A DNA stretch of 64,000 nt. Source: Methanocella arvoryzae MRE50. GTDB taxonomy: Archaea > Halobacteriota > Methanocellia > Methanocellales > Methanocellaceae. Shown here in pieces: positions 377 to 41,237 of the stretch. Within the stretch, counting starts at the first letter, position 1. Each line of letters opens with the position of its first letter. The notes under the pieces are model-generated. The model was not told the DNA's origin and searched no databases. It saw nothing but the letters and a program-made list of their open reading frames with translations. The stretch lies in contig NC_009464.1 of assembly GCF_000063445.1 (NCBI RefSeq), positions 1,426,001-1,490,000 of the forward strand, read 5' to 3'. The position numbers and the translations under genes were made by a program.

Positions 377-3078
<2,702 letters not shown>

Positions 3079-3160
3079 GTCCTGACAGCAATGGCCGGAA
3101 TTCCTGCTGGAAATCCGGTAGAAATACCAGCACGCTTCCGGATGACATGTGCCTGCAATA

Positions 3161-3172
3161 TAACAATTGTTA
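3161..3172. promoter_or_regulatory. Palindromic operator O1 in the SepCysS promoter
   Basis: Perfect palindrome TAACAATTGTTA. On the minus strand a TATA box (CTTATATATG, about 3199-3208) lies 27 bp upstream, which puts the palindrome at or just after the predicted transcription start of the SepCysS-metY-metX unit. A second half-like copy, TAACAATTA, sits at about 3179-3187. Confidence 0.65.
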
Positions 3173-3289
3173 ATTTCCTAATTGTTACTGACCCCGCACA
3201 TATATAAGGCATAGGTTTGAGGCCATTCTTACAGCCCACACAATCGCTGTCTGCCTGCTAACGCTGCCGTCAGTAGCACCACAGGCATA

Positions 3290-3304
3290 TTAACAATTGT
3301 TTAA
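3290..3304. promoter_or_regulatory. Near-palindromic operator O2 with a second TATA box
   Basis: TTAACAATTGTTTAA, one base longer than the core motif. On the minus strand a TATA box (CTTTATATAGC, about 3313-3323) lies 10-20 bp upstream, consistent with a second, distal start for the SepCysS transcript near 3290. The plus-strand alternative is weak because the first ATG is only 13 nt past the TATA box. Confidence 0.5.
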
Positions 3305-3471
3305 TGGCATTCATGCTATATAAAGCATACGATCATGGTAAAATTATGCATTGCAGTAATATCGAGAGTTATATGGCAGGTTATTATAGGAGAGGAATCG
3401 TCGCACGAGAAGAAGGTCAAACCGTCTCTGAATAGGGTTTGCGCAGATATATCATTGTATGAATACCGGAG

Positions 3472-3542
3472 AGCAGAAGGAGAGAATCGAACTCTCTTTC
3501 ACTGGTCTGCAGCCAGTTGCATAGCCACTCTGCCACTTCTGC
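3472..3542 (-). tRNA. tRNA-Cys(GCA), copy 1
   Basis: A complete 71-nt cloverleaf folds on the minus strand: acceptor GCAGAAG/CTTCTGC, 3-bp D stem, anticodon stem ACTGG/CCAGT around loop CTGCAGA (anticodon GCA), T arm GAGAG-TTCGATT-CTCTC, and discriminator U73, the base expected for tRNA-Cys. CCA is not encoded. It lies 394 bp upstream of the enzyme that charges it with cysteine. Copy 3 has the same sequence. Confidence 0.95.
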
Positions 3543-3548
3543 TTTACT

Positions 3549-3560
3549 TAACAATTGTTA
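3549..3560. promoter_or_regulatory. Palindromic operator O3 on the tRNA-Cys copy 1 start site
   Basis: Perfect TAACAATTGTTA, 6 nt before the tRNA 5' end. The minus-strand TATA box TATAAAAAG (3574-3582) predicts a start near 3553, inside the palindrome. This is a repressor-like placement. Confidence 0.7.
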
Positions 3561-3675
3561 TAATACCCTGGTCCTTTTTATAGCTATCTGATGCGGCAAA
3601 ACCGGATACAGATTTACCGGGCGCCACGCACGTGCTGGCAGCCAGGCTGGCGAGATTAAGCCGGGGGACCAGGTA

Positions 3676-3849
3676 TTACAAATCGAATAGTCTGGAGCAT
3701 TTTTCTTTTATCAGCCAGGTGACGAACGAGGAAATTTCTTGCGGATCCGTCTCCGCGTACAGTTCGGCTCCCAGCTTTTCGCCGAAGCCGTACTCCCGGA
3801 ACCGTTGCCAGTGCCAGACTTCAACCGCCTGGGTGCAACGATATTGAAG
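3676..3849 (-). pseudogene. Possible gene remnant, 57 open codons without a start
   Basis: The minus strand between two in-frame stops (TAA at 3850-3852 and TAA at 3676-3678) reads like real protein, with stretches such as VEVWHWQRFREYGFGEKLG and DPQEISSFVTWLIKEK. No ATG, GTG or TTG is available. I do not recognise a family. A TATA-like TATATTAAC lies just upstream. It may be the 3' end of a decayed gene, or a small gene with an unusual start. The rest of 3561-4058 shows no gene. Confidence 0.3.
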
Positions 3850-3986
3850 TTAATATACTTGTATGAGCCTGGCGACGGGCTTTCCCTCAGGATAAAAAGC
3901 CTTGCGGTTGGAATTAATAAGACTGAGAAAGCAGATGGCTGGTGCCGGCCGGGCAAGTTGCGGTCAGCCCGGCAGCAGAAGGAGTG

Positions 3987-4010
3987 AGATCGCCCGGGAG
4001 GAGGCGATCT
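3987..4010. terminator. Hairpin downstream of the small HTH gene
   Basis: AGATCGCC and GGCGATCT form a perfect 8-bp stem with an 8-nt loop, about 48 bp past the stop of the minus-strand HTH gene. A second hairpin, GCCGGGC/GCCCGGC, lies at about 3949-3974. No T run follows on the minus strand, so a terminator role is only possible. Confidence 0.3.
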
Positions 4011-4058
4011 AAAAGGCGGTGCTATAGAGTTAAAACAATGTCCAAGCGGGTGATTTCC

Positions 4059-4241
4059 TTACCCGCCAGACACCCCCGGGTTGAGCCCGTAGAGGCTCTG
4101 CCTGGCGTCCTTGAAGCAGAACCGCTCGACAATCACGTTTTCGGTGCGCAGGCGGTTCAGCGCGTAGCGCACGGTCCTCGGCGGAAGATAAGACCGCTCG
4201 ATGATCTCCTTCTGCGTCAGAGGAGTGCCGGTCTCGAGCAC
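4059..4241 (-). CDS. Winged-helix (MarR/ArsR-like) transcriptional regulator
   Basis: A small DNA-binding protein with an archaeal winged-helix core: LTQKEIIERSYLPPRTVRYALNRLRTE would be helices 2-3 with the recognition helix at PPRTVRYALNRL. The GTG at 4241 is the first usual start codon, but the same frame stays open to about 4334. Its upstream codons (SPKIERLPPSAKLVIKVLE) look like the normal N-terminus of such regulators, so the true protein is probably 25-30 residues longer with a non-standard start, or the start has been damaged. A variant of the cysteine-block palindrome lies upstream at 4365-4380. Target unknown. Confidence 0.6.
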   Translation of the reverse strand: MLETGTPLTQKEIIERSYLPPRTVRYALNRLRTENVIVERFCFKDARQSLYGLNPGVSGG

Positions 4242-4364
4242 TTTGATGACCAGCTTCGCCGACGGCGGGAGACGCTCGATCTTAGGCGATACGGAGATTT
4301 CTGAGTTACTGCCAGTGATGGCAAAAACGATCCCTCATGGTATGTTTCACCACACCTAAATAGA

Positions 4365-4380
4365 CTTAACAATAGTTAAG
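4365..4380. promoter_or_regulatory. Variant palindrome O4 (CTTAACAATAGTTAAG)
   Basis: The arms match the operator found at the tRNA-Cys genes but the centre is ATAG instead of ATTG. It lies just upstream of a weak TATA-like CTATTTAGG (about 4352-4360) for the winged-helix gene, so unlike the others it does not cover the predicted start. It may be a weaker site. Confidence 0.4.
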
Positions 4381-4563
4381 TCTTTCGATGGAGGCAAATT
4401 TCTGGGCGTAGCATGCGGTTATAGGCAAAACGCCCCCGGGTAATGCCTGCTCGTAAAAGCAGATAAAAAAGTGAGAGGCGGGTGCCTGGTCAACAATAGG
4501 GCAGTGCCTGCCGCCGACCATAGTACACGACAACAGATCCGGCTGCATATACGCTACCAGCGA

Positions 4564-4740
4564 TCATTTTGCAGCCAGCCCCCCTCGGAGGAAGCGGCGC
4601 AGCTCGTTCTCATCGTATGGAAGCGGGGGAGTGCTCCAGGGCATGTACCCGGCTGCCAGCGTGGCCTGGACCGTGCGACGTTTTCCCGGCAGGAGGCTCC
4701 CGGAGAGTTCAGCGGCTGTACCCGGGGTGGCAAAAGCCAT
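4564..4740 (-). CDS. Small hypothetical protein, 58 residues
   Basis: An ATG at 4740 opens a 58-codon frame, starting MAFATPGTAAELSG and ending in ELRRFLRGGLAAK, with protein-like composition (TVQATLAAGYMPW in the middle). An AGAAGG purine run abuts the ATG rather too closely for a normal ribosome site. I recognise no family. The stretch 4242-4563 before it holds only the O4 palindrome, and nothing else is seen up to 4924. It could be a real small gene or a remnant. Confidence 0.33.
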   Translation of the reverse strand: MAFATPGTAAELSGSLLPGKRRTVQATLAAGYMPWSTPPLPYDENELRRFLRGGLAAK

Positions 4741-4924
4741 CCCTTCTCTGGTTTTGAAGTTCGGAATTCATCACTTACCTGATGGACTGTCAGGAATATC
4801 AAGCTGAGGATTCAGGCCAAATATGGCATGATCTATGGTTTCCACGCTGAGCGAGTAAAGATTGCCGCAATATTCACAAATAAATAGCTGGCTGGCAAAG
4901 CCTCTGGTGAGCTGACAGCCGCAT

Positions 4925-5080
4925 ATGACCAGAGACATATTCTATAGAGAATCAGGCAGCTACAGGTTTGCCGTGGACAAGGCAGGCATAGGCAGCGTCC
5001 GCGTGCTCAAGAGAGTCAACTTCAAGACATTTATCAGGAGAGTGACAGAGCATGGAATCCAGCGTCAGGAAGAAAGCTGA
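4925..5080 (+). CDS. Small basic protein, 51 residues, overlapping the radical SAM gene
   Basis: ATG at 4925, with GGTGA about 15 nt upstream, opens a frame of 51 residues. It begins MTRDIFYRESGSYRFAVD, contains SVRVLKRVNFKTFIRR and ends HGIQRQEES. It overlaps the start of the radical SAM gene by 29 bp in another frame, so translation of the two may be coupled. It lies below usual gene-calling length. A role as accessory protein or substrate peptide of the radical SAM enzyme is possible but unproven; it could also be chance. Confidence 0.4.
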   Translation: MTRDIFYRESGSYRFAVDKAGIGSVRVLKRVNFKTFIRRVTEHGIQRQEES

Positions 5081-6044
5081 GCTGATCGAGACCGGCGGCG
5101 TAACCGTCGACTCCTCGTTCGCCCCTTATAAAAGTAAAGCAACTGCGGGCCCCGGAGCAGGGCTGGAATCGATCTTCGTGAACATCGACGGGCACAGGGT
5201 AAGGCTGGGCGTCCGCCAGGCCTCGAGGTTCAGCGCTACTATCGACGACGGCATCGTCGTCATTTCCGCGGAGGGCAAAGAGTTCGCCCGGGGACGCCTC
5301 GAGCAGCCGATCTGCCACTGTCCGAAACAGGTCTACATCACAGTGAGCGAGCGCTGCGTGTTCGACTGCAAGTTCTGTCCTGTGCCAAAGCTGCAGGGCA
5401 AGGTCAAGTCTGACGAGGAAATCCGGCAGATTGTCAGGGACGGGCTGAGGAGCCCCGAGCTCTCGGCGATATCGATCACTTCGGGCGTCTGGAAGACTCC
5501 CGCAGAGGAGGCCCGTAAGGTGGCCAGAGTTGTAAGGCTGATCAGGCAGGAGCTCGGTGACAGAGACGTTCCCATCGGAGTCTCCATCTATGCCACGGAC
5601 GAGTCTTCGGAGCTGCTGAAAGAGGCCGGAGCCGCGGAGGTCAAGTACAACATCGAGACGGTCGACAGGGAGATCTTCGAGAAAGTCTGCCCGGGCCTGT
5701 CATTCGACTACATCGTCAAGTCGCTGGAACACGCTGTAGAGGTCTTCGGCCGCAACCACGTTTTCTCCAACATCCTGATCGGCATGGGAGAATCAGACGA
5801 CACTGTGATAAAGGGCATGGAGATGCTCGCTATCAAGGGCGTCATTCCCATACTCCGAAAGACCAATCCACATCCGCTCCGTGCAGGGGAGATCAAGATA
5901 GAGCCGGTGAGCGCTGCCAGACTACTCAAGCTGGCGACGGAACAGCGGCGCATCATCGAGAAGTATGGGCTTGACGCGAAAAAGGCGCTGACTGGCTGCA
6001 TACCGTGCACAGGCTGCGATATCACGCCCATCCTGGACCTTTAA
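5052..6044 (+). CDS. Radical SAM protein, biotin-synthase-related (COG2516-like)
   Basis: This 330-residue protein carries the radical SAM cluster motif C102-x3-C106-x2-C109 (RCVFDCKFCP), preceded by C88 and C90. Near the C-terminus there is a second cysteine set C316, C319, C322 (CIPCTGC) that could hold an auxiliary cluster. GESDDTVIKGMEML is typical of the BioB-like half of the superfamily. The reaction is unknown. It stands alone on the plus strand, facing thiI across a 57-bp gap, with a 51-residue frame overlapping its start. Its place next to sulfur-transfer genes hints at a thiolation or cofactor role, which is inference. Confidence 0.78.
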   Translation: MESSVRKKAELIETGGVTVDSSFAPYKSKATAGPGAGLESIFVNIDGHRVRLGVRQASRFSATIDDGIVVISAEGKEFARGRLEQPICHCPKQVYITVSERCVFDCKFCPVPKLQGKVKSDEEIRQIVRDGLRSPELSAISITSGVWKTPAEEARKVARVVRLIRQELGDRDVPIGVSIYATDESSELLKEAGAAEVKYNIETVDREIFEKVCPGLSFDYIVKSLEHAVEVFGRNHVFSNILIGMGESDDTVIKGMEMLAIKGVIPILRKTNPHPLRAGEIKIEPVSAARLLKLATEQRRIIEKYGLDAKKALTGCIPCTGCDITPILDL

Positions 6045-6101
6045 CTATTTTCTGGCGGGCAATCAGCCTGCTGTTCAGGCAACTTTTGCTGTATTTCTCC
6101 T

Positions 6102-7289
6102 TTAGCCTGAGATCTCGACCCTCTGGAGGTTGTCCATCTCGTACTGCACCAGTGCTTTGAAATCGAACTGCTCCCGCTCCATCCTGATCACTTCTTCGAG
6201 ATGGCCGTGGATGGACGGGTGTTTAGGGACTGCCTTGCAGCCCATCGCTTTTTTTGTGGACAGATCGAACAGGCCTATCCTTCTGGACAGCTCGACGATC
6301 TCATCTTTATCCATCCCTATTAGCGGGTGGTTGATGGGGAAGTCGACGCCGTAGATCTCCGCGAGCATATTGTTGGATGTCTGCGAAGCCACCTGGCCGA
6401 TGGACGAGCCGGTGACGATGCCGTGGGCGCCCTCTTTTTCTGCAATGGCCCGGGCCACTTTGTACATGAGGTGCTTGCAGAACACGCAGGTGTACTTCTG
6501 GTTGCCCTTTTCCTGAAACGCCTGCAGGTTAGGGCCGTGGGGCATGACGTACGCTGTCATCCCGTGGCCGGGGCACCACTTGCTGAGCTCCCTGAGGGTG
6601 TCCAGGGCCCTGTTCATAGTAGTATCGTCGAAGTATGGAGCGTTGTGGAAGAACACGGGCACTATTTCGCAGCCCCGCTTCATCATGAGCCACGCTGCGA
6701 CGGGCGAGTCTATGCCACCAGAGACCATTGCCACCATTTTGCCCTGGCTGCCGAGAGGCATGCCCCCGACGCCTTTGACGATCTCGGTGAAGACGTATGA
6801 GCCCGAGTCTCTGATCTCCACGTGGATGGCATGGTCGGGGTTTTTTAAGTCCACCTTCGGGTGCCTGTCTTTTACCGCCTCGAACACGGCGTCGCCGCAG
6901 GTCCGGCCTATGTCCTGCGAGGTGAAGGGCTGGTTCTTGCCCCCGGAGTGCCTCGGGATGATCGCGAAGGTCTGGTGGTCCTTGATGAGCTCCCTGCCGA
7001 AAGCTGCAGCCACGGCTGCGGCATCTCCTATGGCAGGCCGGGCGGAGACTGCGGGGCTGCATGAGACAACTCCGAACACTCTGGCGATGGATTCCGGTGC
7101 TTTCGGGTCCCGGGTATGGACGAATATGCGGCCTCGTTCCTTAGAGATGCGGTCGTAGGCTACCTGATCCTGGCCCATCATCGCTTTGAGATTTTTTATC
7201 AACAGGTCTTCGTACTTTCTCCTGATCTGGTCGCTCTTGATGGCAATTTCGCCGTAGCGAACAATGACAGTATCAAAATCCAAACTCAA
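6102..7289 (-). CDS. thiI: tRNA 4-thiouridine synthetase / sulfurtransferase ThiI
   Basis: A 395-residue ThiI with an N-terminal ferredoxin-like/THUMP region (about 1-170) and a PP-loop ATPase (SGGIDS, 190-195). It activates U8 of tRNA with ATP and inserts sulfur. It lacks the rhodanese domain of the E. coli enzyme and instead has C268-x2-C271 (TCVFCKH) plus C351 (MGCKAVP), the arrangement of archaeal ThiI that uses sulfide or an Fe-S intermediate. The start is TTG at 7289, touching the larE stop; a second TTG two codons later has better spacing from the GGTGA ribosome site. It is probably in one transcript with larE and two tRNA-Cys genes. Confidence 0.92.
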   Translation of the reverse strand: MSLDFDTVIVRYGEIAIKSDQIRRKYEDLLIKNLKAMMGQDQVAYDRISKERGRIFVHTRDPKAPESIARVFGVVSCSPAVSARPAIGDAAAVAAAFGRELIKDHQTFAIIPRHSGGKNQPFTSQDIGRTCGDAVFEAVKDRHPKVDLKNPDHAIHVEIRDSGSYVFTEIVKGVGGMPLGSQGKMVAMVSGGIDSPVAAWLMMKRGCEIVPVFFHNAPYFDDTTMNRALDTLRELSKWCPGHGMTAYVMPHGPNLQAFQEKGNQKYTCVFCKHLMYKVARAIAEKEGAHGIVTGSSIGQVASQTSNNMLAEIYGVDFPINHPLIGMDKDEIVELSRRIGLFDLSTKKAMGCKAVPKHPSIHGHLEEVIRMEREQFDFKALVQYEMDNLQRVEISG

Positions 7290-8105
7290 TCACCTTGTCA
7301 GTACTTCGTTCAGGCTCCCGCTGCGGAAGCCCCGCAGGTCCAGGGTCACGTATACAAAGCCCTGCCTGCCAATGTGATCCACGATTTTCTCCCGGTGCCC
7401 GATCAATCGTTCGATGTCTTCGGGGGGCACCTCGATGCGGGCGACATCCCCGTGGTACCGCACCCGGCACTGCCGGAAGCCCAGCTCCCGCAGCAGCTTT
7501 TCAGCCTCGTGGACCCGCTTCAGACGATTCTCAGTGATCGGGGTGCCGTAGGGGAACCGGCTCGCCAGACACGCGCCTGAAGGCCGGTCCCAGGTGGGTA
7601 GCCCTGCCTGCTTCGAGAGCTCCCTGATCTCGCTTTTCGAGAGCCCTGCTTCCAGCAGCGGGCTTCTGACACCGAGCTCTCTGCCCGCGGCCATTCCGGG
7701 CCGGTAATCGCCGGTATCGTCAGCGTTGGCCCCATCTATGATGCTCTCGATACCCAGTTCCTGCTGTACCTGTTTGAGGGCGGTGTAGCGTACCTGCTTA
7801 CAGTAGTAGCAGCGGTTTGGAGGATTGGCGGCAAAATCAGGGCTGCCCAGCTCGTCGGCATGGATCAGGACATGCCTGGCGCCGATGAGGCCGGCCAGCT
7901 CTACGGCATAACCCCGCTCCTCCGGGGGCAGCGTCGAGGAGGTCGCCGTCACAGCCACGACCTGATCAGGGCCCAGGGTATCCACCGCACACCTGAGGAG
8001 AAAGGTAGAGTCGACCCCGCCGGAAAATGCGACGAGGACCGAGCCCATGTCCCGGAGGATCTCCTGGAGACGGATACGCTTCGCTTCGAGGATAGTCGAG
8101 GACAT
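7290..8105 (-). CDS. larE: LarE-like ATP-dependent sulfur transferase (PP-loop)
   Basis: A 271-residue PP-loop protein of the LarE/TIGR00268 family, which adenylates and thiolates a carboxylate. The ATP loop is SGGVDS at 28-33. Cysteines C99 and C102 (RCYYCK) and C179 (SGACLASRF) match the three-cysteine LarE subtype that binds a 4Fe-4S cluster rather than sacrificing its own cysteine; subtype assignment is from memory of the family. The ATG at 8105 was chosen because the longer frame runs backwards through two tRNA genes. The start is only 13 nt from the 3' end of tRNA-Cys copy 2. No lactate racemase gene is nearby, so the true acceptor is unknown. Confidence 0.85.
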   Translation of the reverse strand: MSSTILEAKRIRLQEILRDMGSVLVAFSGGVDSTFLLRCAVDTLGPDQVVAVTATSSTLPPEERGYAVELAGLIGARHVLIHADELGSPDFAANPPNRCYYCKQVRYTALKQVQQELGIESIIDGANADDTGDYRPGMAAGRELGVRSPLLEAGLSKSEIRELSKQAGLPTWDRPSGACLASRFPYGTPITENRLKRVHEAEKLLRELGFRQCRVRYHGDVARIEVPPEDIERLIGHREKIVDHIGRQGFVYVTLDLRGFRSGSLNEVLTR

Positions 8106-8118
8106 AAAAAACCCTGAG

Positions 8119-8189
8119 AGCAGAATGAGAGAATCGAACTCCCCTAAACCGATCTGCAGTCGGTTGCATAGCCTCTCTGCCAATTCTGC
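8119..8189 (-). tRNA. tRNA-Cys(GCA), copy 2 (divergent)
   Basis: Full cloverleaf with acceptor GCAGAAT/ATTCTGC, anticodon stem ACCGA/TCGGT, loop CTGCAGA (GCA), T arm GGGAG-TTCGATT-CTCTC and U73. It differs from copies 1 and 3 in the last acceptor pair, the anticodon stem, the variable loop and one T-stem pair (a G-U), mostly with compensating changes, so it looks functional. It has no palindrome or TATA box of its own and probably shares the promoter of copy 3, 58 bp upstream. Confidence 0.94.
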
Positions 8190-8247
8190 CTTTATTTTGA
8201 GAACCGGGCCCTGTAAACAGTACCCGGCGATTTTAGGTAATGTTAAG

Positions 8248-8318
8248 AGCAGAAGGAGAGAATCGAACTCTCTTTCACTGGTCTGCAGCCAGTTGCATAG
8301 CCACTCTGCCACTTCTGC
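8248..8318 (-). tRNA. tRNA-Cys(GCA), copy 3
   Basis: Same 71-nt sequence as copy 1: acceptor GCAGAAG/CTTCTGC, anticodon GCA, U73, no encoded CCA. It leads a probable transcript tRNA-Cys, tRNA-Cys, larE, thiI. Its promoter carries the palindrome at the same 6-nt distance from the tRNA 5' end as in copy 1. Confidence 0.95.
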
Positions 8319-8323
8319 GTGTC

Positions 8324-8337
8324 TTAACAATTGTTAA
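8324..8337. promoter_or_regulatory. Palindromic operator O5 on the tRNA-Cys copy 3 start site
   Basis: Perfect 14-bp palindrome TTAACAATTGTTAA. The minus-strand TATA box CTATATG (8352-8358) predicts a start near 8330, at the centre of the palindrome. The layout matches O3. Confidence 0.72.
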
Positions 8338-8390
8338 TAGGCGGGGGATAACATATAGATTGGGATTGAGGCAAAAAATGATAGAAAAAG

Positions 8391-8774
8391 TTAGTCGAGC
8401 TTATAGACCTTGCTGCCTTCGAAGCAGACATTACAGCCTTCGAGCTCAGTGTCTTCCTGGCGATGCAGGTCGCACAGCGAGCCGCTGGCCTTGACGATGC
8501 CGCAGATCATGCAGATGCCCGGGATGACGTCCCTGGGGGACTTCTCGTTCATGATCTCTTTAGCCAGGTTCTTGATGCCCCTGCGAATATCTTTATTGAT
8601 CGGTATGCCTTTTCCGCGCTTGTCCTTGATGTACTGGGAGACGGCTGACTGAGTGATGCCCAGGCGCTCCGAAACGTCTTTCTGGGACATGCCCATCTTG
8701 ACCAGCTCTTTGGAAAGCTCCGCCCGGATGGTCGGGATCACGTACCAGACAATTAGTTCACAGGGTGGCTTCAT
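8391..8774 (-). CDS. XRE-family transcriptional regulator with Cys-rich tail (COG2522-like)
   Basis: A 127-residue protein with an N-terminal helix-turn-helix at about 28-55 (MSQKDVSERLGITQSAVSQY, recognition helix TQSAVSQYIK). The C-terminal part has C88-x2-C91, C101, and C114-x2-C117, a ligand set suited to zinc or an Fe-S cluster. ATG 8774 was preferred over 8807 because the longer form would include the operator. A palindrome lies 18 bp upstream over the predicted start, which points to self-repression. The same palindrome marks cysteine and tRNA-Cys genes, so I infer this is the regulator of that set, sensing sulfur, cysteine or redox through the cysteines. No direct proof. Confidence 0.82.
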   Translation of the reverse strand: MKPPCELIVWYVIPTIRAELSKELVKMGMSQKDVSERLGITQSAVSQYIKDKRGKGIPINKDIRRGIKNLAKEIMNEKSPRDVIPGICMICGIVKASGSLCDLHRQEDTELEGCNVCFEGSKVYKLD

Positions 8775-8791
8775 AGTATCACGGCGTTTAT

Positions 8792-8803
8792 TAACAATTG
8801 TTA
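8792..8803. promoter_or_regulatory. Palindromic operator O6 in the regulator's own promoter
   Basis: Perfect TAACAATTGTTA. The minus-strand TATA box TTTATAAT (8813-8820) predicts a start near 8792, so the palindrome covers it. The ATG at 8774 is 18 nt downstream, giving a short leader with a GTGAT ribosome site. Confidence 0.7.
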
Positions 8804-8926
8804 TCATACCGGATTATAAATAGTTAACGATGTTAAGTTGCCGGCTGAGTCCAAAGAGACAACGGGCAATTTTAAAAAAGTTCGATAGCACCGGGCAGTG
8901 CCACCATTTCCGTAATCCTGGAGCAG

Positions 8927-40421: not shown

Positions 40422-40658
40422 GGAGATGACTTGCATTTGCCTCAAGCATCTGGCCGATGATGCCACAGACATCCAGGGCTGAAGCCATGTTCAGGCGGGG
40501 TCGCTAAAGCCAGATATCTACATGCTTACGATTGTCGAAACCAGCCAATCCTCCGATAGCAATCTCCCGGAGCATCTGCGGCTATGCAGTAACTCTGCGT
40601 TGATGTACCGGTCCGATACAACCCTAACATTTATATGGGCCGCGGACACGATAATAAT

Positions 40659-40670
40659 TAACAATTGTTA
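40659..40670. promoter_or_regulatory. Palindromic operator O7 in the HEAT-repeat gene promoter
   Basis: Perfect TAACAATTGTTA (the wider match is TTAACAATTGTTAA). The plus-strand TATA box TTTATATG (40630-40637) predicts a start near 40659, at the edge of the palindrome. This is the same geometry as O3, O5 and O6, more than 31 kb away. Confidence 0.68.
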
Positions 40671-40694
40671 AAGCACGGACAGGGGTCGGTACAG

Positions 40695-41237
40695 ATGTCA
40701 GGCTTTTTTCAGAAGATACTCGGGACAGATACGGCAGGCACAGTGAAAAAGATTCAGTACTACGGCAACGCTAAAACCCAGGAAGGGATACCGAAGCTTA
40801 TCCAGTACATGAGCGACGAAAGCGTCGAAATCCGGAGGGCGGCATCCCGGGCGCTGGAGCACCACTGGATGACGGGCAGAAACGATGCCATAGCGGTCCT
40901 GACCAGGGCCCTGGGCGATGCAGACATGGAAGTACGCAAGAATTCCTCGCTGGCGCTCGGGGAGTTTCTCTCAAAGGCGGCTGTGTCTGCCGAAGAGCCC
41001 CGGGCGGCCAGGCAGGCGTTGATCAGGTTGCTGCAAGGCGAAAAAGAGGCCGAAGTCATTAAGAGCACAATACTCGGCCTGGGCTACCTTCAGGACGGCA
41101 GCCTGATTACCCCGATGGCAGACGCGCTGAGGGCTAAGGACAAGAAGATCATCTCTCAGGCCATCGATACGATCGGCAACCTGCCCCCGACAGAGGTCAG
41201 GCTGGAGATGAAAAAGGCGCTCCGTTCGATAATATAA
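40695..41237 (+). CDS. HEAT-repeat protein, 180 residues
   Basis: ATG 40695 was chosen because an upstream GTG/ATG frame from 40665 would overlap the operator. The protein consists of HEAT/PBS-lyase-like helical repeats (EGIPKLIQYMSDESVEIRRAASRALEHH, DAIAVLTRALGDADMEVRKNSSLALGEFL, QALIRLLQGEKEAEVIKSTILGLGYLQD, SLITPMADALRAKDKKIISQAIDTIGNL). Such proteins serve as scaffolds or, when lyase-related, handle cofactors. The cysteine-type operator in front suggests it belongs to the same regulon, perhaps as a partner for a sulfur or Fe-S enzyme (inference). Confidence 0.82.
   Translation: MSGFFQKILGTDTAGTVKKIQYYGNAKTQEGIPKLIQYMSDESVEIRRAASRALEHHWMTGRNDAIAVLTRALGDADMEVRKNSSLALGEFLSKAAVSAEEPRAARQALIRLLQGEKEAEVIKSTILGLGYLQDGSLITPMADALRAKDKKIISQAIDTIGNLPPTEVRLEMKKALRSII

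Follow-up and report, generated by a model that had tools for sequence, protein, structure and literature searches.

A palindromic candidate operator and a small Cro/CI-type protein of a putative cysteine, tRNA-Cys and sulfur regulon in Methanocella arvoryzae and its relatives

Introduction

Single regulators that govern sulfur assimilation together with cysteine synthesis are known from bacteria (CysB of the LysR family and CymR of the Rrf2 family), as is IscR, an autoregulated Rrf2-type regulator of iscSU-type genes that possesses three conserved cysteines. In methanogens the demand for cysteine and Fe-S is high (PMC7585200, PMC8516115), and the linkage of clade VII SepCysS with tRNA-Cys, sulfur genes and a tRNA-Thr editing domain (tRNA-Thr-ED) was reported in 2017 (Mukai et al., PMC5424206) and 2022 (PMC8762117), both studies proposing the editing of Ser-tRNA-Cys. 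The terms 'regulat', 'promoter' and 'transcription' do not occur in the main text of PMC5424206. While the gene linkage is already published, for an operator, regulator or regulon of this kind in archaeal cysteine or Fe-S metabolism we found no description in the open-access literature. On the strength of sequence comparisons, we consider it likely that a small protein of M. arvoryzae (henceforth REG) is a repressor that acts through a palindrome on a cysteine/sulfur regulon which includes an extra tRNA-Cys set.

Gene content of the locus

The window, by which we mean the whole 64,000-nucleotide stretch of the M. arvoryzae MRE50 chromosome that was analysed (positions are those of the window unless called genomic), carries on its reverse strand a second copy of SepCysS (1687..3078; NCBIfam TIGR02539, PRK09331). 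This 463-aa protein has an N-terminal extension (the TIGR02539 match spans residues 78-458), and its gene is followed by metY (O-acetylhomoserine sulfhydrylase; 377..1657; TIGR01326) and by metX, which extends past the window start. The same strand encodes tRNA-Cys(GCA) 1 (3471..3542), its identical copy tRNA-Cys(GCA) 2 (8247..8318) and, downstream of the latter and in one unit with it, tRNA-Cys(GCA) 3 (8118..8189), as well as larE (7290..8105; TIGR00268), thiI (tRNA uracil 4-sulfurtransferase; 6102..7289; TIGR00342), a small winged-HTH (wHTH) protein with an uncertain start codon, which we treat as a candidate regulon member (4059..4319; HTH_24), and REG itself (8391..8774; PF01381), with an HTH_3 domain, Cys5 and Cys88-x2-Cys91. 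Among the genes proposed in the initial annotation (SepCysS-metY-metX, two tRNA-Cys units, one of them leading into larE-thiI, and an XRE regulator), HMM searches confirmed MetY, SepCysS, ThiI, LarE and the HTH_3 protein; as a correction, the tRNA-Cys genes are three, two of them in tandem within one unit.

Just outside the window, and beyond the view of that annotation, a further operator (genomic position 1424233; TATA-to-centre distance 29 bp) heads an operon for a stand-alone tRNA-Thr editing-domain protein (PF08915), IscS and IscU, together with a substrate-binding protein, a ThiF-family protein, an ABC ATPase, a GTPase of the CobW type and another cysteine desulfurase. The SepCysS of the window was assigned by description to the clade VII (SepCysSN) type, whose hallmark is the linkage of a SepCysS with an N-terminal extension to tRNA-Cys, tRNA-Thr-ED and sulfur genes; this arrangement is present here, the PF08915 protein being encoded in the nearby operon.

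The palindrome and its promoters

The 12-mer TAACAATTGTTA occurs without mismatch at 3161-3172, 3549-3560, 8325-8336 and 8792-8803, as well as at 40659 (a copy that had been overlooked), and with one mismatch at 3291-3302 and 4367-4378; the six positions named at the outset proved accurate to within 1-2 bases. When up to two mismatches are tolerated, 9 matches are counted in the window, whereas shuffles lead one to expect 0.58 and none of them reached 9. The genome (3,179,916 bp) contains 7 exact copies, although the base composition of the window would predict approximately 0.06. Six of these seven lie between genomic positions 1424233 and 1466659, i.e. within 42 kb, the seventh (942111) being inside a 546-aa ORF. 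When one mismatch was allowed, 19 genomic matches were obtained for the palindrome and 7 for a reversed control pattern, for which reason one-mismatch sites elsewhere in the genome were mostly set aside. The palindrome is confirmed as genuine and far above chance expectation.

Distances to the promoter were measured from the best TATA-like box on the gene's strand to the centre of the site. At the three sites that had been placed over the predicted transcription start, roughly 25 bp from a TATA box (3549, 8324 and 8792), the measured values agreed with this placement: 28 bp for the operator that lies 5 bp upstream of tRNA-Cys 1 (3548..3561, reverse strand), 29 bp for that of the tRNA-Cys2-tRNA-Cys3-larE-thiI unit (8324..8337, reverse strand) and 23 bp for that in the promoter of the regulator itself (8791..8804, reverse strand). 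Two candidate operators serve SepCysS, one at the proximal SepCysS-metY-metX promoter (3160..3173, reverse strand; ATAACAATTGTTAA on the forward strand; 42 bp) and one, with a single mismatch, at the distal promoter (3290..3303, reverse strand), 28 bp from TTTATATA. The weak, one-mismatch motif match upstream of the small wHTH gene (4366..4379, reverse strand) gains strength because the orthologous gene in relative G095 has TTAACAATTGTGAA upstream. On the forward strand, an operator (40658..40671; 35 bp) precedes the gene of a HEAT-repeat protein (40695..41237; PF13646), a possible extra target of uncertain membership; the ortholog in G003 showed no clear conservation of the site and lent this target no support.

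Conservation in relatives

In a set of 60 relatives, REG orthologs and tRNA-Cys had the palindrome next to them. The exact 14-mer TTAACAATTGTTAA is present in 25 of 394 genomes of the phylum, compared with 3 (one site each) for the reversed control palindrome. We examined 44 distinct contexts of the exact 14-mer: REG was the commonest neighbour (16 contexts), tRNA-Cys adjoined the site in 8, and about one quarter lay off sulfur genes (an IS, ORFs and, in G076, lipoprotein starts). The motif is not equally frequent away from promoters, given that 6 of the 7 exact genomic copies in M. arvoryzae stand behind TATA boxes and 33 of the 44 phylum contexts fit the regulon (REG, tRNA-Cys or a cysteine/sulfur gene). 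Exact sites in relatives were recorded at REG, tRNA-Cys, ThrED-IscS-IscU, SepCysS, LarE, ThiI, rSAM, NadA, CysK, CysH (PAPS reductase, with sulfite reductase and TusA), HcyBio (homocysteine synthesis) and FdhD. The prediction that the motif would be kept at the same genes in relatives was therefore borne out, as exact 14-mers occur at orthologous REG, tRNA-Cys, SepCysS and IscS/U.

In several families the operator is found at both the IscS-IscU operon and REG; in G009 a single site is located between iscS-iscU and tRNA-Cys-ThrED-SepCysS, and the small wHTH gene (of the 4059-4319 type) has a site in two families. Upstream of REG itself, 53 of 77 distinct orthologs have a site (<=1 mismatch) within 200 bp of their own start; those without one include G009, G025 and several f19 members. 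We excluded the copies in G090, most of which belong to a 593-aa transposase-like ORF (an insertion sequence) that recurs at many locations; second sites in G139 and G073 fall within ORFs. By these comparisons, the predicted circuit is conserved across the phylum.

REG and the identity of the binding protein

REG scores above the cut-off for PF01381 (HTH_3), and all 21 aligned orthologs match this family at E<=0.01; among the Pfam and NCBIfam matches listed, none of the 21 has a match to the Rrf2 family, and REG falls below the cut-off of every named NCBIfam family. Across these 21 divergent orthologs Cys5, Cys88 and Cys91 are invariant, and much of the recognition helix is invariant or nearly so. 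AlphaFold predicts an all-helical fold for REG (pLDDT 83); the model gave no convincing structural match by Foldseek against the PDB (nothing better than E=0.74), and a profile search of PDB sequences returned only generic HTH repressors. A contig search that started from one REG sequence proved too restrictive, recovering just two loci, and was discarded; by profile search, the family is present in 312 of the 394 phylum genomes overall, compared with 25 of 25 genomes that have the exact 14-mer.

The first residue of the recognition helix varies together with the half-site. Of the orthologs with Thr at this position, 33 have TTAAC...GTTAA as their site and 3 have a site with one C or G half-site, while all 17 with Ala have at least one C/G half-site (TTCAC...GTGAA type). 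The resulting table (33/3 vs 0/17) yields a Fisher p of 3.5e-11, a value that ignores relatedness and in which the Thr (A:T) class is inflated because some loci were picked for holding the exact motif. On a tree built without the residue under study, three changes of this residue are seen, and the site changes along with it; they include a reversal in G221, which lies within an Ala/TTCAC family. All of the 2-3 independent pairs are concordant, and their small number leaves the sign test not significant. The co-variation is strong in pattern and, combined with the autoregulatory sites, points to the 8391-8774 protein as the probable binder; moreover, it predicts which single REG residue would alter DNA specificity.

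An alternative is that a different factor binds the palindrome, REG being just another target that adjoins a site. This would accommodate the occurrence of the site at many genes besides REG, the REG orthologs that have no upstream site in some genomes, and the second small wHTH gene (4059-4319), which bears the site in two families. We nevertheless judge it improbable, as it sits poorly with the rank of REG as the commonest neighbour of exact sites, with a half-site base that varies with the recognition-helix residue of REG, and with the presence of REG in every genome that has the exact 14-mer.

Repression or activation

Site position bears on the direction of the predicted regulation. In M. 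arvoryzae promoters the site centre is mostly 23-29 bp past the TATA box, and in most of the promoters examined the site is near the predicted start. Archaeal repressors usually act over the start, downstream of TATA, and it is the position at the predicted start that leads us to favour repression. REG could instead be an activator, or an activator or repressor depending on where the site lies, as might be read from the variation of the site centres, whose distance to the best TATA match ranges over 15-53 bp, and from promoters with two sites, such as those of tRNA-Cys in G352 and G033 and of SepCysS in M. arvoryzae. With most sites lying over the predicted start and downstream of TATA, we regard both of these possibilities as unlikely.

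Unregulated copies as internal controls

Of the five tRNA-Cys genes in M. arvoryzae, the three in the window form two operator-headed units and those outside it (genomic 126257 and 196122) have no operator. Similarly, in G014 two extra tRNA-Cys genes carry operators and the only other one examined (L255) does not; in G055 two carry them; the off-cluster tRNA-Cys genes fetched from the operator-bearing genomes had no operator, which would limit the regulation to the extra tRNA-Cys set. Among tRNA genes for other amino acids, the operator was found in 0 of the 22 examined, and in G002, a member of the same family as M. arvoryzae, neither the regulator nor the motif was found. It is thus very improbable that the palindrome serves in core-promoter function or tRNA processing, or forms part of a mobile repeat, and has no regulatory role: although in the window it stands 5-6 bp from the 5' ends of tRNAs, and it has copies inside the G090 insertion sequence, it is absent from these 22 genes and from the other tRNA-Cys genes fetched, is common to protein-coding promoters and is lost in the REG-less G002.

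The other SepCysS locus of M. arvoryzae (genomic 860069), SepRS (263591) and CysRS (189374) have no operator (a 3-mismatch match approximately 880 bp upstream of SepRS was discounted). The putative circuit would therefore cover the extra tRNA-Cys/SepCysS set and not the charging enzymes. Accordingly, the initial idea that one operator governs a tRNA, its charging enzyme and sulfur carriers holds for the sites at tRNA-Cys and sulfur genes and fails for the charging enzyme, given that SepRS and CysRS have no operator and SepCysS is a modifying enzyme.

Proposed mechanism and significance

From the observed sites, their geometry, the gene set, its conservation and the co-variation, we infer that REG, a small Cro/CI-type protein (8391-8774), binds the operator TT(A/C)ACAATTGT(T/G)AA; a REG dimer would most likely occupy the palindrome, cover the transcription start and block initiation, including that of its own gene (autoregulation). 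Its putative targets are the extra tRNA-Cys set, the second SepCysS, genes of homocysteine/cysteine synthesis (metX and metY, to which relatives would add CysK, CysH and HcyBio), IscS-IscU and the sulfur transferases LarE, ThiI and FdhD. The three invariant cysteines probably bind a metal or an Fe-S cluster, or react with sulfur, and repression might be lifted when the supply of cysteine, sulfide or Fe-S is low; the nature of this signal is the weakest step of the mechanism, and we put it forward tentatively. The stand-alone editing-domain protein may, in line with the proposal of PMC5424206, strip Ser from tRNA-Cys.

A more speculative reading, to which we give limited credence, is that the second, repressible tRNA-Cys/SepCysS set of archaea in this phylum is metabolic: under low sulfur or Fe-S, REG with its cysteine-bound cofactor would release the extra tRNA-Cys as a scaffold for tRNA-dependent cysteine synthesis that feeds IscS-IscU, and the unregulated tRNA-Cys, SepRS and CysRS would serve translation. 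The predicted circuit could explain why methanogens have a duplicate SepCysS and extra tRNA-Cys genes, and offers a testable control of their cysteine and Fe-S supply; it would place tRNA genes under the direct control of an operator dedicated to metabolism, and an unnamed regulator family, widespread in the phylum, gains a candidate operator and a likely role.

Comparison with known systems

The locus shares with the clade VII SepCysSN cluster the extended second SepCysS, tRNA-Cys, sulfur genes and the stand-alone tRNA-Thr-ED, to which the present analysis adds the operator, the regulator and the putative regulon. With the XRE/Cro-CI (HTH_3) repressors REG has in common the HTH_3 domain and a palindromic candidate operator near the transcription start, but it differs from them by its conserved N-terminal Cys and C-terminal CxxC. 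As in the case of CysB and CymR, one regulator would preside over sulfur assimilation and cysteine synthesis (the palindrome is present at CysK and CysH in some relatives), whereas its family is unrelated, the promoters are archaeal and tRNA genes are among the predicted targets. Like IscR, REG has three conserved cysteines, and candidate operators are present at iscSU-type genes and at REG itself; unlike IscR, it is an HTH_3 protein without a Rrf2 match, and its putative regulon takes in tRNA-Cys together with cysteine and homocysteine synthesis.

Further operator sites and possible targets

We reason that the radical SAM protein of the window (5052-6044) may belong to the sulfur regulon, since in a relative within the phylum (G352) an exact operator precedes the orthologous gene (protein 51% identical) by 46 bp. 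An exact match also lies 20-odd bp upstream of a HEAT-repeat protein gene (operator and gene, window 40658-41237); at the ortholog in another relative (G003) the full operator was not found, only a degenerate half-site. Both additional tRNA-Cys genes of M. arvoryzae (genome 126257-126328, L241, and 196122-196194, L242) lack the operator, and the latter has the discriminator A73, an isoacceptor type on record for Methanocella (PMC8762117).

In family f6 the operator adjoins genes for GMC-type FAD oxidoreductases (L140:1500-2756, L141:12310-12969, L142:3487-4758). Within a single MAG (G076) the 14-mer stands immediately 5' of three distinct lipoprotein-like ORFs (L145, L146, L147) with similar N-termini, which are perhaps additional targets. 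One genome (G090, loci L148-L155) has 11 copies of the 14-mer; those read fall mostly within the coding sequence of a transposase-like gene (593 aa) that is itself repeated, and were set aside as a coincidence that has no connection with the regulon.

A stand-alone editing domain protein

The first gene of the M. arvoryzae iscS-iscU operon, just beyond the window (L016:9671-10216; genome about 1423671-1424216), encodes a stand-alone tRNA-Thr editing domain protein (PF08915), and in G009, another relative, the gene for such a protein is placed between tRNA-Cys and SepCysS. We regard it as a candidate Ser-tRNA-Cys deacylase, a role previously proposed for the stand-alone tRNA-Thr editing domain (PMC5424206).
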